Shown: positions 9,615-25,041 of the stretch, in pieces
How the letters are laid out: each line of letters starts with the position of its first letter
Numbering within the stretch: position 1 is the stretch's first letter
Source: Coriobacteriia bacterium
GTDB lineage: Bacteria; Actinomycetota; Coriobacteriia; Coriobacteriales; RUG033
NCBI GenBank assembly: GCA_015655215.1
Contig: JAATFL010000008.1
Coordinates: 1 to 64,000 of the forward strand
Reading direction: 5' to 3'
DNA length: 64,000 bases
Notes under the pieces: model-generated
What the model was told of the DNA's origin: nothing
The model's input: the letters and a program-made list of their open reading frames with translations, nothing else
Databases searched by the model: none
Made by a program: the position numbers and the translations under genes

Positions 9615-9949
9615 ATCCGTGCCAACGTTGGATGGGGTGATCTCCCCTCGCCACGATCTCTCCTCGCGACACATAGAAGCTTGTCTCGTGCACCTCACCT
9701 GATTCCGGCGAAGTGGTCTTTTCACCATGTTCCGGCCATGCCAGATGTGGGACTTCGCTTCATCCCTGCGATGCGGTCTATCCGGTGGGGAAGAATACTT
9801 GACCCAATCCCGCCATGCGGGGAAATGTGCGAGTCGCTGGCCATGCGCACCACCAACAAGAGACACCAAACGTATGGACGATGGGCAGGGCCTGAGATTC
9901 GCATCAAGGCGAGTGAACTCACTGGGGAGCTCGCAGAATGGAGAGGGTC

Positions 9950-11596
9950 ATGGCTCAAAAGGGAACCAAGGCGACGGGAATCTCAAGGCGATCGTTTCTG
10001 ACCGGGGTGGGTGCTGCCGGCACCTTGGCGGCAGTTGGCATGATTGCCGGCTGCACGACAGGCACGCAGGCTTCTTCCGGAGTGGATGCGACGGAAACCT
10101 CCGACGTCTCTTGGCGTACGGTTCCTGACGTCCCCGGGGGAAGCGACGTCTCAGAGACCGCGGATGTCGATGTGTGCGTGGTGGGTGGTGGCAGCTCGGG
10201 TCTTGGAGCGGGTCGCTCCGCCTTGCTCCATGGCGCGAAAAGCGTGCTTGTGTTGGAGAAGAACGGAACCTCGCGCGTTGGCGGGGGCGTACACGGCATC
10301 CTGGGTTCCAAGTATGCACAGGCGATCGGCGTCGAGTACAGTGACACCCAGGTTGACGAGATGATCAAAGAGGAAGTCAAGATGTCGAGCATGCGTGCCG
10401 ACGAGCGCTACTATCGTTTATGGGCAAAACGTTCGGGAGAGGTCTTCAGCTCCATGCTCGATGGCTTCGATTCCCAATACGTGCACTGCACGAACAACGG
10501 TGCTGCTCCATACGATCAGCTTTCCGATGAGTACTTCTCGGAGTCGGCGTACCCGGGAGAGGGTCTGCAGGTTTCATCCGGAGACGTGAACACTCCCGTC
10601 ATCGATGGCTTCACGCAATGGATCAACCAGAATGGTGGTGAGGTCCGCTACAACACCGCAGGCGAACAGCTGATAAAGGAAGGCGATAAGGTCGTCGGTG
10701 TCTACGCCAAGAAGGAGGATGGCTCGTACCTGAAGGTTAGTGCCAAGGCGGTCATCGTCTCGGGAGGTGGCTTCGAAGGCAACGAGGAAATGGTTGCCGA
10801 ACTGGCTCCACACGCCATCGGTACGCACGTTGCCAACACGGTTCCGGGCGATGGGTCCGCAATCAGCATGTGCGTCTGGGCCGGAGGCGTGACGCAGATG
10901 TCCCCGTGCTGCATCATGCTGTCCTCGGCGAAGTCGCCAGACGATCCCAACGTTCCCAACCCCATCCCGTTCATCTGCGTCAACAAGAATGGGGAACGGT
11001 TCGCCAACGAGGCGACGAGCTCGTTCGTCATTCCCTATTCCATCCTGAACCAGCCGGATAGGCGTGCGTGGCAGATTTTCGACGCCAACTACGCGCAGAC
11101 CATCAACGCGTTGCAAATCCAAACCTGGATGGGCACCATCGTCTTCAACGATGAGAAGATCGCGAAGTTCGAGGAAGCTGCGACCAAGGCCGACACCCTC
11201 GCGGAGCTCGCCGATAAACTCGGGGTCGACCCGGATGGGCTGCAGGAGACCGTCAAGACGTACGGCGAGATGGCAACGGCCGGCCATGACGACCAGTTTG
11301 GATTGCCGCTGCGCTTCATGAGCGCCGTCAATCCGGTGACTCCCCCGTTCTACGGCATGGAGATCCCGTACAACTGCCTCGTGTCCCTCGGCGGCGTCGT
11401 CTGCAATCCTGAAACATCCGAGGTCCTTGATGAGAGCCGCAGCCCGATTCTCGGCCTCTACGCTTCCGGCAATACCGTTGGCGAACGCTTCGGCATGGCC
11501 TATACGAACAATGTGACAGGTCTTTCCAACGCCTTCGGCGATATCGGTGGATACGTCGCTGGCGAAAGCGCCGGCGCATACGTCACCACGGCATAA
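9950..11596 (+). CDS. Tat-exported FAD-dependent reductase, lipoprotein
   Basis: MAQKGTKATGISRRSFLTG, lipobox IAGC, FAD motif VCVVGGGSSGLGAGRSALLHG. RBS GGAGAGG suggests this start within the longer ORF (9938). Confidence 0.9.
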   Translation: MAQKGTKATGISRRSFLTGVGAAGTLAAVGMIAGCTTGTQASSGVDATETSDVSWRTVPDVPGGSDVSETADVDVCVVGGGSSGLGAGRSALLHGAKSVLVLEKNGTSRVGGGVHGILGSKYAQAIGVEYSDTQVDEMIKEEVKMSSMRADERYYRLWAKRSGEVFSSMLDGFDSQYVHCTNNGAAPYDQLSDEYFSESAYPGEGLQVSSGDVNTPVIDGFTQWINQNGGEVRYNTAGEQLIKEGDKVVGVYAKKEDGSYLKVSAKAVIVSGGGFEGNEEMVAELAPHAIGTHVANTVPGDGSAISMCVWAGGVTQMSPCCIMLSSAKSPDDPNVPNPIPFICVNKNGERFANEATSSFVIPYSILNQPDRRAWQIFDANYAQTINALQIQTWMGTIVFNDEKIAKFEEAATKADTLAELADKLGVDPDGLQETVKTYGEMATAGHDDQFGLPLRFMSAVNPVTPPFYGMEIPYNCLVSLGGVVCNPETSEVLDESRSPILGLYASGNTVGERFGMAYTNNVTGLSNAFGDIGGYVAGESAGAYVTTA

Positions 11597-13225: not shown

Positions 13226-14866
13226 ATGATAGAAGAGAGAACCGAGGGCGTTTCCCGTCGGACCTTCCTGGAAGGTGCCTCCCTGGCTGCTGTCGTCGCC
13301 GCTACGGGTATGGCTCTTACGGGCTGCGGATCCACGAACACGACCACCGGATCGAGTACGACTGAGGCTGGGACCGAGGGTTCGGCTTCGACAGACACGG
13401 TATGGACGATTGAGGAGCTCGGGGAACCAACCGAGACCATTTCCACCCAGGTCTGCATCGTGGGAGGCGGTGGGACCGGCCTCGCCGCCGGCGTCCAGGC
13501 CAAGCAGCTCGGCTTGGATGCCGTTGTGTTGGAGAAGAAGGGGAATACTGGTGGATCGTTCATCGGCACCGAGGGCTTGTTCGCCGTCGGTTCCCATTGG
13601 CAGATTGCCGCTGGCGAGACCGTCACGGCTGCCGAAGTAATCAAGGAGTGCATGAACTATCACCACTGGGTCCCCAATATCGAGCTCTACAGGGCATTCT
13701 TCAACAAGACCGCCGCGACCGTTGACTGGCTCGAGAGCATCGGCGTCGAGTTCGATCACGTGCAGGCTTTAGGTGACTCCCACATCTGCTGGCATATCTA
13801 CAAGGGCTCTCTGCACCCTGGCGTCGAGTTCATGAAGAGCATGGCCGCAGCGGCGGTAAACGTCGATCTGAACATACAGCCCAGCACCTCCGGCAAGAAG
13901 GTGCTCATCGAGGACGGCAAGGTCACAGGTATCCTCGCCGTCAAAGATGATGGCTCGATCCTCAAGGTCGAGGCGCCTGTCGTTATCATCGGCTGCGGCG
14001 GCTATGCGAACAACGAGGACATGATCACCTCCCTGTCCGGTGTCGATGCTTCCCTTACCTGTGCAGCCGGCATGGACGGTCGCGATGGCGACGGTATCAA
14101 GATGGGTGTCGACGCGGGTGCCGCGCTTGCCCCCGACCCTGGCACCATCATGTTCTACGGCCCTGTCGCCAAGACGACCAACTGGGGCTCCATGGCGACT
14201 GCCTGTTCCCAGCAGCCGCTTCTCCTGGTCAACCAAGACGCCAAACGCTACGTCGAGGAGAACATGCCCCTCAGGAATTTCGCGTTCGCCGGTATCGCCG
14301 AGAAGATGCAGGAGAAGGTCTATCAGATCTTCAACGAAGCTCTGCTCGAGAAGCTCGAGAACGAGGGGGCGCTGACGAGCGTCGGCGTCTATGTCATAGC
14401 CGGCAGTCCGATGACAGGTCTCAACGATGAGATCCAGGCTCTTGTCGATAAGGGCGAGACCGCTTTCAAGTCTGACAGCATCTCTGGACTTGCCTCTGCG
14501 ACGGGGCTGGATGCCGCTACGTTGCAGGAGACCTTCGATACGTACAACACGTACTGCATGACCGGTATCGATGAGGACTTCGGCAAGCCCGCGGACTACC
14601 TGATCGCCATGGAGGATGGTCCGTTCTACGCCGTTGAATGCGTGAATGGTTATTATACGACGTGCGGTGGTCTGAAGGTCAGTCCGAACACCGAGGTTCT
14701 CGACGAGAATGGGGAGATCATTCCCGGCCTGTATGCTGGTGGTTGCGACACCGGTGGATTCTACGGTGACGCCTACGATGTGGCGATCGCTGCTGGATCC
14801 GGTGCCTCCTGGGCCATCAACTCCGGTCGTATCGCCGCAGCGGCTGCCGCCGATTATCTAGCTTGA
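13226..14866 (+). CDS. Tat-exported FAD-dependent reductase, lipoprotein
   Basis: GVSRRTFLEGASL, lipobox LTGC, FAD motif VCIVGGGGTGLAAGVQAKQLG. Divergent from the LysR gene. Confidence 0.9.
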   Translation: MIEERTEGVSRRTFLEGASLAAVVAATGMALTGCGSTNTTTGSSTTEAGTEGSASTDTVWTIEELGEPTETISTQVCIVGGGGTGLAAGVQAKQLGLDAVVLEKKGNTGGSFIGTEGLFAVGSHWQIAAGETVTAAEVIKECMNYHHWVPNIELYRAFFNKTAATVDWLESIGVEFDHVQALGDSHICWHIYKGSLHPGVEFMKSMAAAAVNVDLNIQPSTSGKKVLIEDGKVTGILAVKDDGSILKVEAPVVIIGCGGYANNEDMITSLSGVDASLTCAAGMDGRDGDGIKMGVDAGAALAPDPGTIMFYGPVAKTTNWGSMATACSQQPLLLVNQDAKRYVEENMPLRNFAFAGIAEKMQEKVYQIFNEALLEKLENEGALTSVGVYVIAGSPMTGLNDEIQALVDKGETAFKSDSISGLASATGLDAATLQETFDTYNTYCMTGIDEDFGKPADYLIAMEDGPFYAVECVNGYYTTCGGLKVSPNTEVLDENGEIIPGLYAGGCDTGGFYGDAYDVAIAAGSGASWAINSGRIAAAAAADYLA

Positions 14867-14975: not shown

Positions 14976-15959
14976 TCAGTCTATGGTCGCGACGACCTTT
15001 CCAAATGCGCCTGACCGCTCCATGAGCGCATGCGCCCGTCCGATCCGGTCGAGCGTGAACCGCGCCCCGACGATAGGGTGCATGTCGTGGGCGGCGATAT
15101 GGGAGAAGATGGCATCGATGGTCTTCTGGTCCGGATAGTTGCTGAAGAACCCGGAAAGCGAGACGCCATTGGGGATATCCTTGATGGGGTCGAACCCGTT
15201 CAACTCGTACTGGTTGCCCAGCACGCCCGACATGCAGACACGACCCGGGTTTCCGGCGAGGTGCATGGACTCCAGCAACGTGGAAGGTCCAACCAGTTCC
15301 AGTATCGTATCGAATCCATGAGGATGCGACGCGAACGCCCGGTCGGCCAACGTCTCGTCATCCAGGAGCACCACGTCGGCACCTGCCTGTAGCAGCTTCG
15401 CCGCCTTCGTCTGGCTCCGCGTGGTGGCAGTGACCACGCATCCCAGGCTCCTCGCAATCTGCAACGCAGCGAGCCCTAGAGCGCTCGTTCCCCCGCGGAT
15501 GAGCAGGCTCTCGCCAGACTGTAGGCGCAGGCATTCGAACAGCGAACCCCATGCGGTGAACCATGTCTCGGGAATGGCCGCCATCTGGTCCCATGGCAGG
15601 TCGCTGTCGACCGAGAACACGATGCTCTCGGGCAACAGCGCGTACTCGGCATAGCTGCCATCGAAACTGCGACCCATGCCCCCCATCAGGGCGACCACGC
15701 GGTCGCCTGTCTTGAAACGGCTGTCAGAGGGGTCGGCTATCACCCCCACGCATTCGATGCCGAGGATGCGCGGGAGTCGTATGTGGTCCTCCTCGGCTTC
15801 GAATGCGCGCAGCATCACCTCGGAGTGGTTCAATCCGAACGCTTCCACCTGCACCAGCACCCATCCGGGCTTTACCCGGGGGACGGGCACGCGTGATGTG
15901 TGCAGCTCCTCGGCGGCACTGGACCGTTCCAGTACCACGGCTCTCATCGTTGATTCCAT
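14976..15959 (-). CDS. zinc-independent MDR/quinone oxidoreductase-like dehydrogenase
   Basis: MRAVVLERSSAAEELHTSRVPVPRVKPGWVLVQVEAFGLNHSEVMLRAF, GTSALGLAALQIARSLGCVVTATTRS. The start ATG (15959-15957) overlaps the stop of the upstream radical SAM gene (TGATG). Confidence 0.85.
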   Translation of the reverse strand: MESTMRAVVLERSSAAEELHTSRVPVPRVKPGWVLVQVEAFGLNHSEVMLRAFEAEEDHIRLPRILGIECVGVIADPSDSRFKTGDRVVALMGGMGRSFDGSYAEYALLPESIVFSVDSDLPWDQMAAIPETWFTAWGSLFECLRLQSGESLLIRGGTSALGLAALQIARSLGCVVTATTRSQTKAAKLLQAGADVVLLDDETLADRAFASHPHGFDTILELVGPSTLLESMHLAGNPGRVCMSGVLGNQYELNGFDPIKDIPNGVSLSGFFSNYPDQKTIDAIFSHIAAHDMHPIVGARFTLDRIGRAHALMERSGAFGKVVATID

Positions 15960-17002
15960 CAGACGACTCCTTCGATCTCTTTCCAGCACTGCGGGTCAGG
16001 GGCGTACATGCTCCCCGAGTAGCCGTATGCTACGGCGGGACAGCCACGGCAGAATCCCATCAGTTCGCACTTGCTGCACTTCTGCAGCTTGTCGAATCGA
16101 CGATATTCGTCCATGCTCGCGCCCAGGAAGATATCGCGCATGGACGAATCGAACGCGTTGCCCACGCGACTTTCCATGCGGCGGCAGGCGTATACGTCTC
16201 CGTTCGGCAGGATGGTCATGTGCTCGATCCCGCAGTGGCAGCCATCGTAGATAATGTCCGGCTGCGCGTCCTCTGGGATGGTGAACAGTCCCTGCTCGTA
16301 GCGCAGCAGCGTCCAGAGGTGGTCTTTCAGTTGAAACGTGGTGCCGCATCCTCCATGTGCGTCGATGCGTTCTTGGCACTTCAGCAGAAAGCTGCGGTAG
16401 CTTGATGGTTCGATGTGGAATTCCCGACTCTTCTGGCCACTGGTGGGGCAGTAACGTCCGAAGGCGTAGACATCCACGTGGTGTTCGGCGACCACGTCGA
16501 TCAGATGGGGGATGTCCGCCATGTTGGCGCTGGAGACGGTGGTCATGACGGCGCACCACATGCCACTGTCGCGGATGAGGGGGATGGCCTTCAGCGTCGC
16601 CTCGAACGAGCCGGGCTTGCGGAACACGTCGTGTGTTTCACGCAGGCCATCCAGCGAAAGTTGATACTTCCTGCAGCCCAACGCAGCCAGGCGCTCACAG
16701 ACCTCGCGAGTCAGATGGAATGGGTTGCCCATAACGGCGAATCCGAATCCGCGGGTATGCAGCAACTCCGCCAATCGCCAGAAGTCGGGATGCAGGATGG
16801 GATCGCCACCGGTCAGGTAGAAGTAGGGTTCGCGCCCCAATTCGTCGCACATGACGCTGCAGCTATCCACGATGTGCTGCATCTTTTCGAATGGCATGTT
16901 CTCTGGGGATGCGCATGCACCCTCCGAGAAGATGTAGCAATGCTTGCAGCGCTGGTCGCACTCATCGGTTATGTGCCATTGGAAAGCGAAGGAGGGATTC
17001 AT
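15959..17002 (-). CDS. radical SAM/SPASM peptide-modifying enzyme (candidate RiPP maturase)
   Basis: CX3CX2C motif CDQRCKHCYIF, TGGDP, and a SPASM domain with cysteines CHCGIEHMTILPNGDVYACRR...CSKCELMGFCRGCPAVAYGYSGSMYAPDPQC. Confidence 0.9.
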   Translation of the reverse strand: MNPSFAFQWHITDECDQRCKHCYIFSEGACASPENMPFEKMQHIVDSCSVMCDELGREPYFYLTGGDPILHPDFWRLAELLHTRGFGFAVMGNPFHLTREVCERLAALGCRKYQLSLDGLRETHDVFRKPGSFEATLKAIPLIRDSGMWCAVMTTVSSANMADIPHLIDVVAEHHVDVYAFGRYCPTSGQKSREFHIEPSSYRSFLLKCQERIDAHGGCGTTFQLKDHLWTLLRYEQGLFTIPEDAQPDIIYDGCHCGIEHMTILPNGDVYACRRMESRVGNAFDSSMRDIFLGASMDEYRRFDKLQKCSKCELMGFCRGCPAVAYGYSGSMYAPDPQCWKEIEGVV

Positions 17003-17024
17003 GAAGTGCCTTTCGGTAAACGAT

Positions 17025-17060
17025 AAGAGCCCGGGACGCGAAAGGTGCGCCCGGGCTCTT
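17025..17060 (-). terminator. hairpin between precursor and maturase genes (possible attenuator)
   Basis: AAGAGCCCGGG...CCCGGGCTCTT, in the gap between the 53-aa ORF stop (17093) and the radical SAM start (17002). Confidence 0.6.
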
Positions 17061-17092
17061 ATTTTTCGCGTTCGCGGGTTCGCGCAGGTCCG

Positions 17093-17254
17093 CTATTTAG
17101 GATCGGCCGTACCGCAACCACCGGAAACCTTCGGATCGGCCGTACCGCAGCCACTGGAAACCTTCGGATCGGCCGTACCGCAGCCACCGGAAACGGCGAC
17201 GTGGTGGGTGGGGCTGCACCATGTGGCGACCTTGCTCAGGATCTGATTCTCCAT
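17093..17254 (-). CDS. putative RiPP precursor peptide with three tandem Cys-Gly repeats
   Basis: Not in the ORF track because it is short. Reverse complement reads MENQILSKVATWCSPTHHVAVSGGCGTADPKVSSGCGTADPKVSGGCGTADPK*. AGGAGG RBS just upstream; maturase directly downstream. Confidence 0.85.
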   Translation of the reverse strand: MENQILSKVATWCSPTHHVAVSGGCGTADPKVSSGCGTADPKVSGGCGTADPK

Positions 17255-17527
17255 TGCTACCTCCTATAACGAATGGGCCTCATCCTGTTCGAGAGGCTAT
17301 CATCGCATCGTAGACACCTATCCGAGGATTCACAAGAAGCCACTTGTTTATCGGTTAGTTACAAAAAGGTAAGTAAGTTATCGAGGCGCTACCCTGTCCG
17401 GTCTCGTTTGACAGGAGTCACCTTGCAGATAGACTGCTTGTCGAGGTGATCGAAACCGACGTTGGAACCCTTCTCCCTCTCACCAGTGCATGGTGAGCGA
17501 TGTATGGTCAAATGAAATGAGGCGGTC

Positions 17528-18317
17528 ATGATTTCCGTACGAGAAGGATTCGAGATACTCGCATCACGCCCGGCACGCACCAGTTGGAAGATCCCCGCGT
17601 TCTGCAACAATGGCTGGGCGGCGATTCGCCTCTTGCGGTTCTGCGAGGAGATGGGGGTCGAGCGCCCCTTTGACATAGCTTATGGAGCGCCTTTTGCGCC
17701 TGGTCAGGTGGGCGTCCTATAAGCTCACGCGTCACATACGCGAGACGCACCCCACCATCAAGTTGATTGCCTCGCTCAACAAATGCATGTGCGACCTGCG
17801 CAAGGACTCCTCGCGTGAGACCGAGTATTACCGTCAGCTGTTCACGCAGTTCGATGAGGTCGTGGTACGTTGCGAATACGTACTCGATGACGTTTCCATC
17901 CACCAGCTCGATGATGTGAAGGACCGCGTGGAGATCATCGTCAATCGGTTCTGTGTTCCCAATTGCCAGCATTGCTACGAGCATATCTCTGCAGTCGAGC
18001 AATGGAATGACGAAAGGCAACGGGGAGTCTGTCAGCAGTGCTTCTACCTAAAGACCGCCGGCGACATCAACAGGCGTTTGAACGAGAGCCTGTTCATATC
18101 GGACAAGCGGATAAACGAGTTGGTCGATTCCGGTTTCTATAAGATGAAACTCGCCGGACGCAACGCTCCTCTGCCCAAGTTCATCGACATGCTTGCAACC
18201 TATGTCTTCGAACCGACGGGCGTGATCAACTTCATGAAGAACGACATGATGCGAGAGTTCAAGATGCTGGCGCAAACCCGGGGGCCCTCGTTCAATCCTT
18301 GTTCACTGATTTCCTAA
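17528..18317 (+). pseudogene. decayed U32-like (TIM-barrel) protein gene, frameshifted or internally deleted
   Basis: N-terminal part in one frame (CNNGWAAIRLLRFCEEMGVERPFDIAYGAPF), a short AWSGGRP in a second frame, and the C-terminal part in a third (YKLTRHIRETHPTIKLIASLNK...RVEIIVNRFCVPNCQHCYEHI...GFYKMKLAGRN). Confidence 0.5.
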
Positions 18318-19152: not shown

Positions 19153-19284
19153 GTGGGTGCTTGAGATTTGACCCTCCGTTTTCTGGATTCTAACGTGATC
19201 GGCGGGGGAATCGTCTTAACAAGCTATGCATTGATTGAAGGGATGTCCCTCAAAGACGATAAGGATTTGTCGGAAGGGGTAAAG

Positions 19285-21120
19285 ATGAGTGAAGGGATTT
19301 CACGCCGCAGTTTTCTCGCAGATGCTGCTCTGATGGCTGGAGGTGCAACGCTTGCTGCCGGATTGAGCGGTTGTGCTTCCAGCACGAACGAGACGGCCAG
19401 CGCGTCTGATGCGGCCAGCGAGATCGAGGTGGGGACACGGCCCGAGGCTGGCGGCCTTGCTGGACCTCTGCCGATGCAGACGGGGAAGATCGGTCCAGAC
19501 GCAAAGCCTATCCTGCCGATTGATGCACCCGCGAACTGGGATGCAGAGTACGATGTCGTCGTCGTCGGCAGTGGGTACGGCGGATTGGTTGCCGCTGCAT
19601 ACGCTGCGGAGAACGGATACGACGTCGCGCTGCTCGAGAAGAGTGATACGACCGGCGGTGCCTCCCGCCATGCAGCCATCAATATGGTGGTGCCCGGTGG
19701 GGCTCAAAGTCAGAACGAAATGGGCTACGCATGGCCGGGCGACACCTTCGACGTTGAGGCAGCCGCCGCGCAACTGGAAGAGAACTTCAACTTCAACATC
19801 GACATCAAGCTTTTGAAGGGCGCCATCGAGGCTGGTGGCCCGTGGGCTGACTGGATGTGCGCTCAGTCTGGCGTCCAGTGGGTCTGCGAAGGATCGAGCT
19901 TCGTTGATGTCGACATACACGACGGCAAGCGCAATACCGTGCTGGGCAACGACCGTACCTGCGACGCGCTCGAGACCAACGCTCGCAACGCCGGTGCCGA
20001 TGTCAAGCTGCAGTGCGAATGCAAGGCTCTTGTCCAGCAGGATGGCCGCGTCATCGGCGTCAAGTGCGGTGGCGATGACGAGCTCTACCTGAGGGCGAAG
20101 AAGGGCGTCATCCTGTGCGCAGGCGGCATGGGATACAACCTCGACCTGCTCGAGCAGTATGTTCCGACGGCGTACATGTACACCGTCCAGGGAGGCCCGT
20201 TCCCGTCCCATACCGGCGACGCGTTCCGCATGGGCTTGGGCATGGGGGCCGACGTGTCCGGTTTCAACTCCTACTGCGCATGGGAGGGCGGTTTGGATGA
20301 ATACTGGGGATCCGGTGACGGTCAGTTCTTCCATTACTTCTGGAACGGCGCCAAGCAGCTCATCCAAAACCCCTGGCTGCTCATCGACAAGGCGGGCAAT
20401 CGACTGCCGTACTTCCTGAAGAGCTTCACCAAGGGTGAGATCTTGCAGGAGCGGGCCGACTTCGAATCGTTCAGCATGGGGGACTTGCCGAGTGCGGCCG
20501 CTTGGATGGGTTCCGCGGGTCATCGTGCGTACGCTATCTTCGACTCCAATTACAAGAGCAGCCTTACGCAGTTCGAGCCGACGCTCACGTGCCTTGACGA
20601 GTCGCGTATCGTGCTGAAGCCCGATGGAAAGACCGTTGAGAACGACTTCTGTGGGACCGACTGGGAGGGCGATTTCGAGAAGGCGGTCAATCGCGGTGCC
20701 ATCCAGAAGGCCGATACCCTCGACGAACTGGCCGAGCAGCTTGGATTGAAACCCGAGCGTTTGAAGGCCGCCGTCGAAGACTGGAATAGGATCTGTGCGC
20801 AAGGCTACGATGACGAGATGCCGTGCCCGTATCTGAAGGAATGGCTGGTCCCTCTGAACAACCCGCCCTATTATGGTGCAGCTGAAGGCGGTGTTATCGG
20901 CAAGACGTTGGCCGGTCTGCGCGTCAATGAGAAGATGCAGGTCGTCGACGATGATGTGGATGCCATCCCGGGTCTTTACGCCGGGTGGACCACAGCCGGC
21001 GGTATATGCGGCGAGTCGAGCTTCTGCACCTTCGGCAACCCATCGCTTGATGGCGGTGTCGGTATGTCGGGTGTGGGCGGTTGGATGGCCATCAAAGGTC
21101 TCCTTGCGAGCGAAGAGTAA
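19285..21120 (+). CDS. Tat-exported FAD-dependent reductase, lipoprotein (3-ketosteroid dehydrogenase/fumarate reductase-like)
   Basis: MSEGISRRSFLADAALM, lipobox LSGC, FAD motif VVVVGSGYGGLVAAAYAAENG. Start placed at the M before the Tat motif. Confidence 0.9.
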   Translation: MSEGISRRSFLADAALMAGGATLAAGLSGCASSTNETASASDAASEIEVGTRPEAGGLAGPLPMQTGKIGPDAKPILPIDAPANWDAEYDVVVVGSGYGGLVAAAYAAENGYDVALLEKSDTTGGASRHAAINMVVPGGAQSQNEMGYAWPGDTFDVEAAAAQLEENFNFNIDIKLLKGAIEAGGPWADWMCAQSGVQWVCEGSSFVDVDIHDGKRNTVLGNDRTCDALETNARNAGADVKLQCECKALVQQDGRVIGVKCGGDDELYLRAKKGVILCAGGMGYNLDLLEQYVPTAYMYTVQGGPFPSHTGDAFRMGLGMGADVSGFNSYCAWEGGLDEYWGSGDGQFFHYFWNGAKQLIQNPWLLIDKAGNRLPYFLKSFTKGEILQERADFESFSMGDLPSAAAWMGSAGHRAYAIFDSNYKSSLTQFEPTLTCLDESRIVLKPDGKTVENDFCGTDWEGDFEKAVNRGAIQKADTLDELAEQLGLKPERLKAAVEDWNRICAQGYDDEMPCPYLKEWLVPLNNPPYYGAAEGGVIGKTLAGLRVNEKMQVVDDDVDAIPGLYAGWTTAGGICGESSFCTFGNPSLDGGVGMSGVGGWMAIKGLLASEE

Positions 21121-22893: not shown

Positions 22894-23130
22894 GACTTCG
22901 GCTATCCTGTCGATCCCTCTGGCATGCCAACGGCAGTCGAGACCCACGATCTGGGGTTCTGCTGGGGAAAATCGGCGCCATCACCCATTTTGGTAACAGC
23001 GATTCTTGCAAATCGCCCGTTTGGGTTCTGCAATGAAGATGCTGGGAAACATACGCTTCTCCGTGCAAGGGGATGGAAAACCAAGCCTTATCTCCTTGCA
23101 ATCCTGCATACGAGGGAAAGGGAGAACAGC

Positions 23131-25041
23131 ATGTCGTCAAACGGGAGTACCACCTCACGGCGAGATTTCCTCAAGGGCGCCGCACTGACCAGCGCCGCTC
23201 TTGCGGGAGCAAGCTTCCTATCAGCCTGCTCCTCGGGAACATCGAGCGAGAACGTGTCTTCGGATAGCGCAACCGCCGATTCCGGCCGCGTGACCGGGTA
23301 CTGCGGTCCTGGTGATTGGCTCGGGGAGGCTCCCGCCGTCGCAGACTCGCAGATTACCGACACCATCGACGTCGACGTCGTGATCTTGGGCAACGGTCAT
23401 TCGGGCGTGGGCGCTGCGATGGGGGCTACCGACGCAGGGCTCACCGCGGCGGTGATCGAGAAGCAGGCCTGGAGCACCTATGTGAACGACAAGGGAGACG
23501 GGACGAACATGGCCGGTTGGTATGGCGAGGATATCGGCCATGTCAACTCGCAGTTCCTCATCGACCGCGGCTTTGGCCCCTACGACACCGGCGAGATCGT
23601 CTCCGAGTTCTGCAAGCGTGGTGCCGGACGCGTGAACCCCGACATCATCAAAGCGTATGTGCAGAACTCGGGTGCCATGTTCGACCGGTACCATGCGATA
23701 TACAACCTGTATGGCGATGAGCGGGAAAAGGACGACAGCGCCGTCTACCTGACAAGCCCGATCGATGGGAACTCGTCGGGGACATACGACCTGAGCGATA
23801 TGTTCCAGTATCCTCTGTGCAACACCCAGGCATGCTATTCCGGAGCGAACGTCTCATATCCCATCTCTGCGGGCGGTTATAAGACGTGGCCTTGCAATGC
23901 GCAGTTCTACGGTATGCAGGGCAACAACATCGAGTACGTGCACAAGTACATCGTGCAGCATGCACAGGAAAACGGAGCCACCTACTACTTCGAGCATACC
24001 GGCGTGGTCCTCACGCAAGATTCCGACGGTGCCGTCACCGGACTCATCGCCCAGGACTCCGCGGGGAACTACAAGAGGTTCAACGCAGCGAAGGGCGTCA
24101 TCCTGTGCGCTGGCGACTACATCGGCAACCCCGAGATGTGCTGGGCCCTGCTCAACGAGGGCATGGAGTGGGGAGAGCGCTCCGGTTCGACCAACGAGGA
24201 CTGGACGCAATCGGGTAGTCGCATCGGTGACGGACACAAGATGGGCTGTTGGGCAGGGGGCATGGTCGAGCCGTCGCCACGTGGATGGATGGCGATCGGG
24301 GCGGGTTGCAACGGACCATGGGGTGCGGCACCCATACTGCAGCTCAACGCCGAGGGCAAGCGCTTCTCCAACGAGGCCGCCATCGCGCAAGCCGGCCCGG
24401 TCGACCTGCGGCAGCCCGCTGGGGCCGCCTGCTGGGTGTCGGACGCGAACTGGAGCAAGACGGTTGCCTCGGCGCCACTTGACCACGGCGCCCCCAACTT
24501 TGGCATGGACGACTTCTATACCGACCTGAAAGCTGACATGGATGCCTGCGTGGTAGGGCCTACCGCCAACCAGGTGATCGGCGCGGCCCTCGGTGAGCGC
24601 AGATCGATGAAGGGGAGCGTGTTCGCCGCGAACACCCTTGAGGACCTCGCCACCTATCTGGGATACACCGGGGATGCCGCCACGAGCCTCCTCGCCTCGA
24701 TCAAGGCCTACAACACCCTCTGCGAAGCGGGCGTCGACAGCGATTACGGTAAGGATGCGAAGTACATGGTGCCAATCGACACGCCGCCCTACTATGGCGG
24801 GACCGGGACCTTCTCCCATTCCTCCACTCCCATGATGGTCACCATGTCCGGGCTGGTGACCGATGCCCATCAAAACGTGCTCGATACGTCTTGGGAGCCG
24901 ATCAAGGGGTTGTATGCAGCGGGTAACTGCCTGGGTGGCCGATACGGTTTTGGCTACAGCACCCCGTTTGCCGGCAACAGCGTCGGAATGGCCATCACCC
25001 ATGGCTGGCTCGCCGCCCGTACCATTGCGGGTGTCGCATAG
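23131..25041 (+). CDS. Tat-exported FAD-dependent reductase, lipoprotein
   Basis: MSSNGSTTSRRDFLKGAALTSAALAGASFLSACSSG. C-terminal KGLYAAGNCLGGRYG. Start moved to the M before the Tat motif. Confidence 0.9.
   Translation: MSSNGSTTSRRDFLKGAALTSAALAGASFLSACSSGTSSENVSSDSATADSGRVTGYCGPGDWLGEAPAVADSQITDTIDVDVVILGNGHSGVGAAMGATDAGLTAAVIEKQAWSTYVNDKGDGTNMAGWYGEDIGHVNSQFLIDRGFGPYDTGEIVSEFCKRGAGRVNPDIIKAYVQNSGAMFDRYHAIYNLYGDEREKDDSAVYLTSPIDGNSSGTYDLSDMFQYPLCNTQACYSGANVSYPISAGGYKTWPCNAQFYGMQGNNIEYVHKYIVQHAQENGATYYFEHTGVVLTQDSDGAVTGLIAQDSAGNYKRFNAAKGVILCAGDYIGNPEMCWALLNEGMEWGERSGSTNEDWTQSGSRIGDGHKMGCWAGGMVEPSPRGWMAIGAGCNGPWGAAPILQLNAEGKRFSNEAAIAQAGPVDLRQPAGAACWVSDANWSKTVASAPLDHGAPNFGMDDFYTDLKADMDACVVGPTANQVIGAALGERRSMKGSVFAANTLEDLATYLGYTGDAATSLLASIKAYNTLCEAGVDSDYGKDAKYMVPIDTPPYYGGTGTFSHSSTPMMVTMSGLVTDAHQNVLDTSWEPIKGLYAAGNCLGGRYGFGYSTPFAGNSVGMAITHGWLAARTIAGVA

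Follow-up and report, generated by a model that had tools for sequence, protein, structure and literature searches.

A predicted coriobacterial branch of the ACGX radical SAM/SPASM peptide system with GCGTADPK repeats

The closest described relative of the locus reported here is the ACGX system, whose maturase and precursor peptide are represented in family libraries by the models TIGR04340 and TIGR04341. TIGR04341 describes peptides with repeated CG tetrads (ACGX) encoded next to a TIGR04340 enzyme, and the RefSeq names acgA and acgM have already been applied to a copy on a Roseburia plasmid. No paper on ACGX, TIGR04340/TIGR04341, or AcgA/AcgM was found in the open-access literature, and the system has apparently been named but not studied. 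Three other systems are relevant for the chemistry. The radical SAM enzyme SbtM (TIGR04082) forms a thiooxazole with the loss of four hydrogens (PMC11002830). Thiooxazoles are also known on EGKCG repeats, i.e., Cys-Gly with an acid nearby, where they are made by unrelated iron enzymes (PMC12668002). In CX3D/E motifs, PapB joins Cys to an Asp or Glu residue, and it also acts on CXnD with n = 0-6 (PMC9413430).

The locus and its repeat peptide

The window (the whole stretch of 64,000 nucleotides that was analyzed, from a Coriobacteriia bacterium, an anaerobe of the gut type) almost certainly contains an ACGX (acgA/acgM) RiPP locus, in a coriobacterial variant with GCGTADPK repeats. Its features are the following:

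17260-17265, minus strand: ribosome-binding site AGGAGG, 5 nt before the ATG (read directly)
17093-17254, minus strand: precursor peptide gene (AcgA-like, 53 aa; from the ORF and its sequence, the repeats, and synteny)
17195-17254, minus strand: leader region of the 53-aa peptide (L-x-x-V-A-x-(W/F/Y) motif)
17162-17194, minus strand: core repeat 1, VSGGCGTADPK (repeat analysis)
17129-17161, minus strand: core repeat 2, VSSGCGTADPK (repeat analysis)
17096-17128, minus strand: core repeat 3, VSGGCGTADPK (repeat analysis)
17023-17062, minus strand: strong hairpin in the gap that separates the precursor and maturase genes (-40 kcal/mol, z -3.82)
15959-17002, minus strand: radical SAM/SPASM maturase (AcgM, TIGR04340), 347 aa (NCBIfam, Pfam, AlphaFold)
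14976-15959, minus strand: MDR-family oxidoreductase, PIG3-like quinone oxidoreductase (Pfam ADH_N/ADH_zinc_N)

The peptide consists of the leader MENQILSKVATWCSPTHHVA and three copies of an 11-residue unit with the consensus V-S-(G/S)-G-C-G-T-A-D-P-K, each of which contains a CX3D/E motif (CGTAD). The ORF, its sequence, its strand, and its AGGAGG site had been given in a preliminary description of this DNA and are confirmed by direct reading. The same description held that the repeats persist at the DNA level with mostly synonymous or conservative changes. The three 33-nt units are in register and 91-100% identical, with one replacement (GGT/AGT, Gly/Ser) and three synonymous codon differences among them. 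With its three near-identical single-Cys repeats, the peptide lends itself well to use as a substrate. Of the 65 other unique leaders of the ACGX-related family, 29 have the L-x-x-V-A-x-(W/F/Y) motif of the window leader as well. The window leader additionally holds a Cys at residue 13 (17216-17218, minus strand; context WCSPTHH) that is not followed by Gly. A repeat-containing ORF on the opposite strand (16944-17246, plus) was dismissed as a shadow ORF of the precursor gene.

Pfam assigns Radical_SAM and SPASM domains to the maturase, which scores 545.8 bits against TIGR04340 over residues 4-343 (NCBIfam, cut-off 400). The CX3CX2C motif of radical SAM enzymes is present, and so are the seven SPASM cysteines, the full set that the preliminary description had ascribed to it. 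C15, C19, and C22 as well as C255, C273, C309, C312, C318, C321, and C339 are invariant in an alignment of 41 family members (the enzyme alignments omit loci L068 and L069, which are frameshifted or stop-containing). An N-terminal RRE-like extension is not apparent. The AlphaFold model (pLDDT 89.7) matches the folds of SkfB, SuiB, PqqE, and anSME, and searches of the PDB by sequence and by fold confirm that the protein is a SPASM enzyme, with matches that discriminate no single chemistry.

Hairpins comparable to that between precursor and maturase occur in relatives (median z about -3.5, mononucleotide shuffles). The hairpin is a probable partial terminator or processing site and, because it lies between the two genes, the peptide would be made in excess over the enzyme. 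The start codon of the MDR gene overlaps the stop codon of the maturase (TGATG). This gene scores 184 bits against TIGR02824, below the cut-off of that model, and clusters with the MDR genes of other ACGX cassettes at 59% identity.

Elsewhere in the window, two overlapping ORFs in different frames (17528-18317, plus) resemble one interrupted gene (FCVPNCQHCYEH motif), the longer ORF having no Pfam or NCBIfam match. Furthermore, four large flavoprotein-like oxidoreductases with twin-arginine-type leaders (9938-11596, 13226-14866, 19168-21120, and 22924-25041, plus) were recognized by eye in the ORF list, near LysR- and LuxR-like regulators.

Family membership, distribution, and substrate pattern

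The preliminary description had pointed to TIGR04340 for the enzyme and TIGR04341 for the peptide; the former holds, whereas the window peptide gives no match to TIGR04341 at E <= 10 (cut-off 28 bits). Its coriobacterial sister peptides likewise give no match (L022) or 17.9 bits (L068), and the model does match peptides from Bacteroidales, Ruminococcus, and others. The window units read GCGTADPK rather than as repeated ACGX tetrads, and the peptide does lie next to a TIGR04340 enzyme, with 90 nt from its stop codon to the maturase start. Since the peptide fails TIGR04341, the earlier caution that the 11-residue repeat is not a simple ACGX tetrad was justified. The two repeat types are bridged by L068, from an Eggerthellaceae genome, in which VSGGCGTADP stands next to ACGTACGSADP units within one peptide.

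A CG-repeat peptide was found upstream of the maturase in 74 of the 77 related loci with readable upstream DNA; among the remaining three, the peptide of L042 has masked bases, and L037 and L054 showed none. Most of a set of 30 archaeal loci carry the peptide beside the maturase as well. The repeat number ranges from about 2 to 11 in clear examples. Thus, the recurrence of repeat peptides beside orthologous maturases, to which the preliminary description had tied its proposal, is observed, as are the homologous loci with varying repeat number for which it had suggested a search. In a tree of 41 members, the window enzyme groups with other coriobacterial AcgM in a starred clade (100/99), which branches within the ACGX enzymes.

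Judged by sequence and gene order, the enzyme is a member of the ACGX maturase family, and the peptide is a divergent variant missed by the present TIGR04341 model, i.e., the syntenic equivalent of AcgA despite its failure against that model. The locus as a whole is, on the same grounds, a divergent coriobacterial branch of the named ACGX system. The earlier proposal of a RiPP precursor with a SPASM maturase, belonging to ACGX or a sibling, is thus supported by the TIGR04340 score and the bridging sequences. It is very improbable that the repeats arose by chance or as a structural artefact and that the enzyme does not act on the peptide. The missing TIGR04341 match speaks for such an artefact, but a triple tandem of this kind appeared in 0 of 100 shuffles of the precursor region, synteny is kept across phyla and domains, and L068 supplies a bridge.

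A scan of 85,000 species genomes with the maturase returned 80 loci at 55-69% identity, which belong to Clostridia, Coriobacteriia, Bacteroidales, Treponema, and Methanobrevibacter and come mostly from assemblies titled gut, rumen, or faecal. AcgM exceeded the TIGR04340 cut-off in 12 of 298 sampled Coriobacteriia genomes, in 9 of 398 from the phylum of Desulfosporosinus, and in 31 of 152 from that of Methanobrevibacter. A Roseburia plasmid (L108) carries the whole ACGX cassette, and a Methanosphaera plasmid (L109) carries a regulator, a CG-repeat peptide, a split maturase, and a zinc-type dehydrogenase. These plasmid copies suggest that ACGX genes have been transferred across domains.

Several viral or more distant sequences were also seen. 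An IMG/VR contig (L103, 4707-6023) encodes AcgM with a Bacteroidales-type ACGX peptide and, by eye, a protein resembling a phage tail tape-measure protein. A second IMG/VR contig of 504 kb (L104, 4941-6026) encodes an AcgM of 480.8 bits, and no precursor was recognized there. On a viral contig of 70 kb that also bears a DNA-polymerase-like gene (L106, 4880-5990), a SPASM enzyme scoring 213.6 bits against TIGR04340 and 174.7 bits against SbtM (TIGR04082) adjoins a 33-aa peptide that ends in YCSGCNGCG and has no acid at +4. The pair may represent a new, phage-borne subfamily of RiPP systems; a search for relatives of the L106 maturase returned only L106 itself. L102 (712-2529) encodes an AcgM-like protein of roughly 605 aa with about 260 extra N-terminal residues (369.7 bits, below the TIGR04340 cut-off), and no CG-repeat peptide was found within 1.5 kb of it. 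In L120 (2887-3174), a distant maturase relative (241 bits) is followed by a long-leader peptide with the Cys-rich end SSDCDSCCNGGQPDGDCSECFAACCQ.

The 73 unique cores together contain 387 Cys. At +4 from Cys, 222 of these have Asp or Glu and 110 have another Cys; the 110 are Cys of tandem units without an acid at +4. An acid at +4 thus follows 222 of the 277 terminal Cys, compared with a mean of 47 when the other residues are shuffled. Most exceptions are CGSD units of Methanobrevibacter, which have the acid at +3, and other archaeal peptides contain CGSE, CGGE, CGAD, CGEE, or CGAGD. In L093, the unit is CGAAE. Gly directly after Cys is near-universal in core units. From the +4 counts, the archaeal +3 units, and the Asp/Glu variation in L093, a common rule can be read for about 80 precursor sequences: C-G, a short variable stretch, and an acid, which stands at +4 in the bacterial and at +3 in the archaeal peptides. 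As an optional part, another ACGX tetrad stands in front, so that tandem units have a second CG at +4.

Candidate bond chemistries

The SPASM enzyme would modify the Cys of every C-G unit. With regard to the bond formed, enzyme likeness and substrate spacing pull in opposite directions. Among NCBIfam models, SbtM ranks second for the window enzyme, with 191.2 bits (below its cut-off of 350), whereas the PapB model (NF047865) gives 60.1 bits against a cut-off of 340, which is below even heme-synthesis radical SAM families; the +4 acid, on the other hand, recalls PapB. We tentatively favor, at somewhat less than even confidence, a 5-thiooxazole at each core Cys in the style of the SbtM family over a thioether. 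Such a product would be lighter by 4 Da per Cys and by 12 Da in total for the three core Cys. The SbtM model matches all 41 family members with the best E-value after TIGR04340, and the near-universal C-G, which the known thiooxazole repeats EGKCG also show, as well as the lack of a +4 acid in the viral L106 peptide and at the tandem Cys are further points for a thiooxazole. It does not, however, account on its own for the strict +4 Asp/Glu, and the interchange of Asp and Glu in L093 and methanogens also speaks against it. Moreover, the TIGR04082 score, a likeness to the family model, lies far below the cut-off of that model. In 299 genomes of the Desulfosporosinus phylum, no SbtM was found at E <= 1e-60.

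The spacing of the acid would instead suit a freyrasin-like thioether from the Cys sulfur to the beta carbon of Asp (gamma of Glu) in CX3(D/E), with one ring per repeat and a mass change of -2 Da per Cys-acid pair, which is the change per repeat that the preliminary description had had in mind. For this reading, the exceptions to the +4 acid or +4 Cys are mostly archaeal CX2(D/E), and the Cys at +4 in tandem units may itself be the acceptor. The fixed acid together with the interchange of Asp and Glu (CGAAE in L093, archaeal CGSE) fits the substrate pattern of PapB (PMC9413430). We nevertheless regard the thioether as unlikely: apart from the low PapB score and the RRE-like domain that is not apparent at the N-terminus, the Gly that almost invariably follows Cys is not required for freyrasin chemistry, tandem units have two Cys per acid, and a Cys-to-Cys beta link would be new.

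Similarly doubtful is some other Cys-centered chemistry (formylglycine as in anSME, epimerization, or an unknown ring), in which the acid would serve only recognition or metal binding. The best structural matches include anSME and PqqE, neither of which, to our knowledge, has a fused RRE. SPASM enzymes of similar sequence catalyze diverse reactions, and no family member was found to be characterized in the literature. Nothing, however, favors one such reaction, and the sulfatase motif CXPXR/CXAXR, known for anSME, is absent. Beside the favored thiooxazole, a ladder of bonds from Cys to Cys, Asp, or Glu (i to i+4) would also be compatible with these data.

Possible redox-stress context and comparison with known systems

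The content of the gene cassette was determined by clustering of neighbors with coverage limits and by Pfam/NCBIfam scans. A divergently transcribed HxlR regulator is present in 45 of the 64 loci with enough upstream sequence, and a single Cys is invariant in all 50 of the 50 HxlR proteins. The one that was scanned is similar to the redox regulator RrpB, at 111 bits and thereby short of the 175-bit cut-off. HypR, YodB, and CatR, which are of the same regulator type, sense HOCl, quinones, and diamide via N-terminal Cys residues (PMC6943732). Downstream genes in 47 loci encode Sir2 (22), nitroreductase (21), PNPOx-ferredoxin (19), MDR (16), macrodomain (11), and DUF1848 (7) proteins, and 39 of these loci have at least one of nitroreductase, MDR, and PNPOx-ferredoxin. 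The window retains only the peptide, the maturase, and the MDR gene (quinone-type oxidoreductase), and no HxlR gene was found near the locus or in its 79%-complete genome.

In relatives, a Cys-based, redox-type regulator would thus control the peptide, which would be made alongside flavin-, quinone-, and nitro-reducing enzymes. There is accordingly about an even chance, judged from the gene neighborhood, that the product serves the cell under thiol-specific or electrophile stress, as a soft nucleophile or as a ligand for metals. No conserved exporter, immunity, or peptidase/protease gene was seen in the neighborhoods of related loci, so that an intracellular action of the product is probable. 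For lack of such genes, a bacteriocin reading was rejected. Taken together with the regulator and the reducing enzymes, the missing exporter and peptidase genes make an intracellular stress factor more likely than a bacteriocin. A broader and rather improbable proposal is that ACGX is the anaerobic radical SAM counterpart of the captophorins, i.e., that bacteria, methanogens, plasmids, and phages share intracellular poly-thiooxazole peptides built on CG repeats and induced by thiol or electrophile stress. If this were true, the CGxxD units of the coriobacterial peptides would represent a variant with a single site.

What the analysis adds is the common substrate rule (CG with an acid at +3/+4), a divergent branch missed by current models, and the conserved redox-stress neighborhood in both bacteria and archaea. 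With these, it becomes possible to test directly both the chemistry (a loss of 2 or 4 Da for each repeat) and the role (induction by stress).

Among known systems, captophorins and bufferins (thiooxazole peptides with EGKCG repeats made by MNIO enzymes) share Cys-Gly repeats with an acid nearby; in their case, however, unrelated iron enzymes install the thiooxazole, and their signal peptides and copper context are not seen here. The PapA/PapB ranthipeptide system, which yields freyrasin, likewise has repeated CX3D/E motifs beside a SPASM maturase, but the window differs from it in scoring about 60 bits against the PapB model, in lacking an RRE-like region, in its near-invariant CG, and in the tandem Cys units of its relatives. 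SbtM/SbtA, a thio(seleno)oxazole system (TIGR04082), has the closest other maturase family for all members tested and a small Cys-containing substrate, although the window enzyme reaches 191 of 350 bits and lacks the N-terminal part of about 200 aa of the SbtM model. From the ACGX system (TIGR04340/TIGR04341) itself, the window is set apart by its GCGTADPK 11-mers without the CGXACG tandem, by the unmatched TIGR04341, by the lack of an adjacent HxlR gene, and by a cassette cut to three genes, while it shares with that system the maturase family, the gene order, a small leader with a C-G repeat core, and the MDR oxidoreductase downstream.
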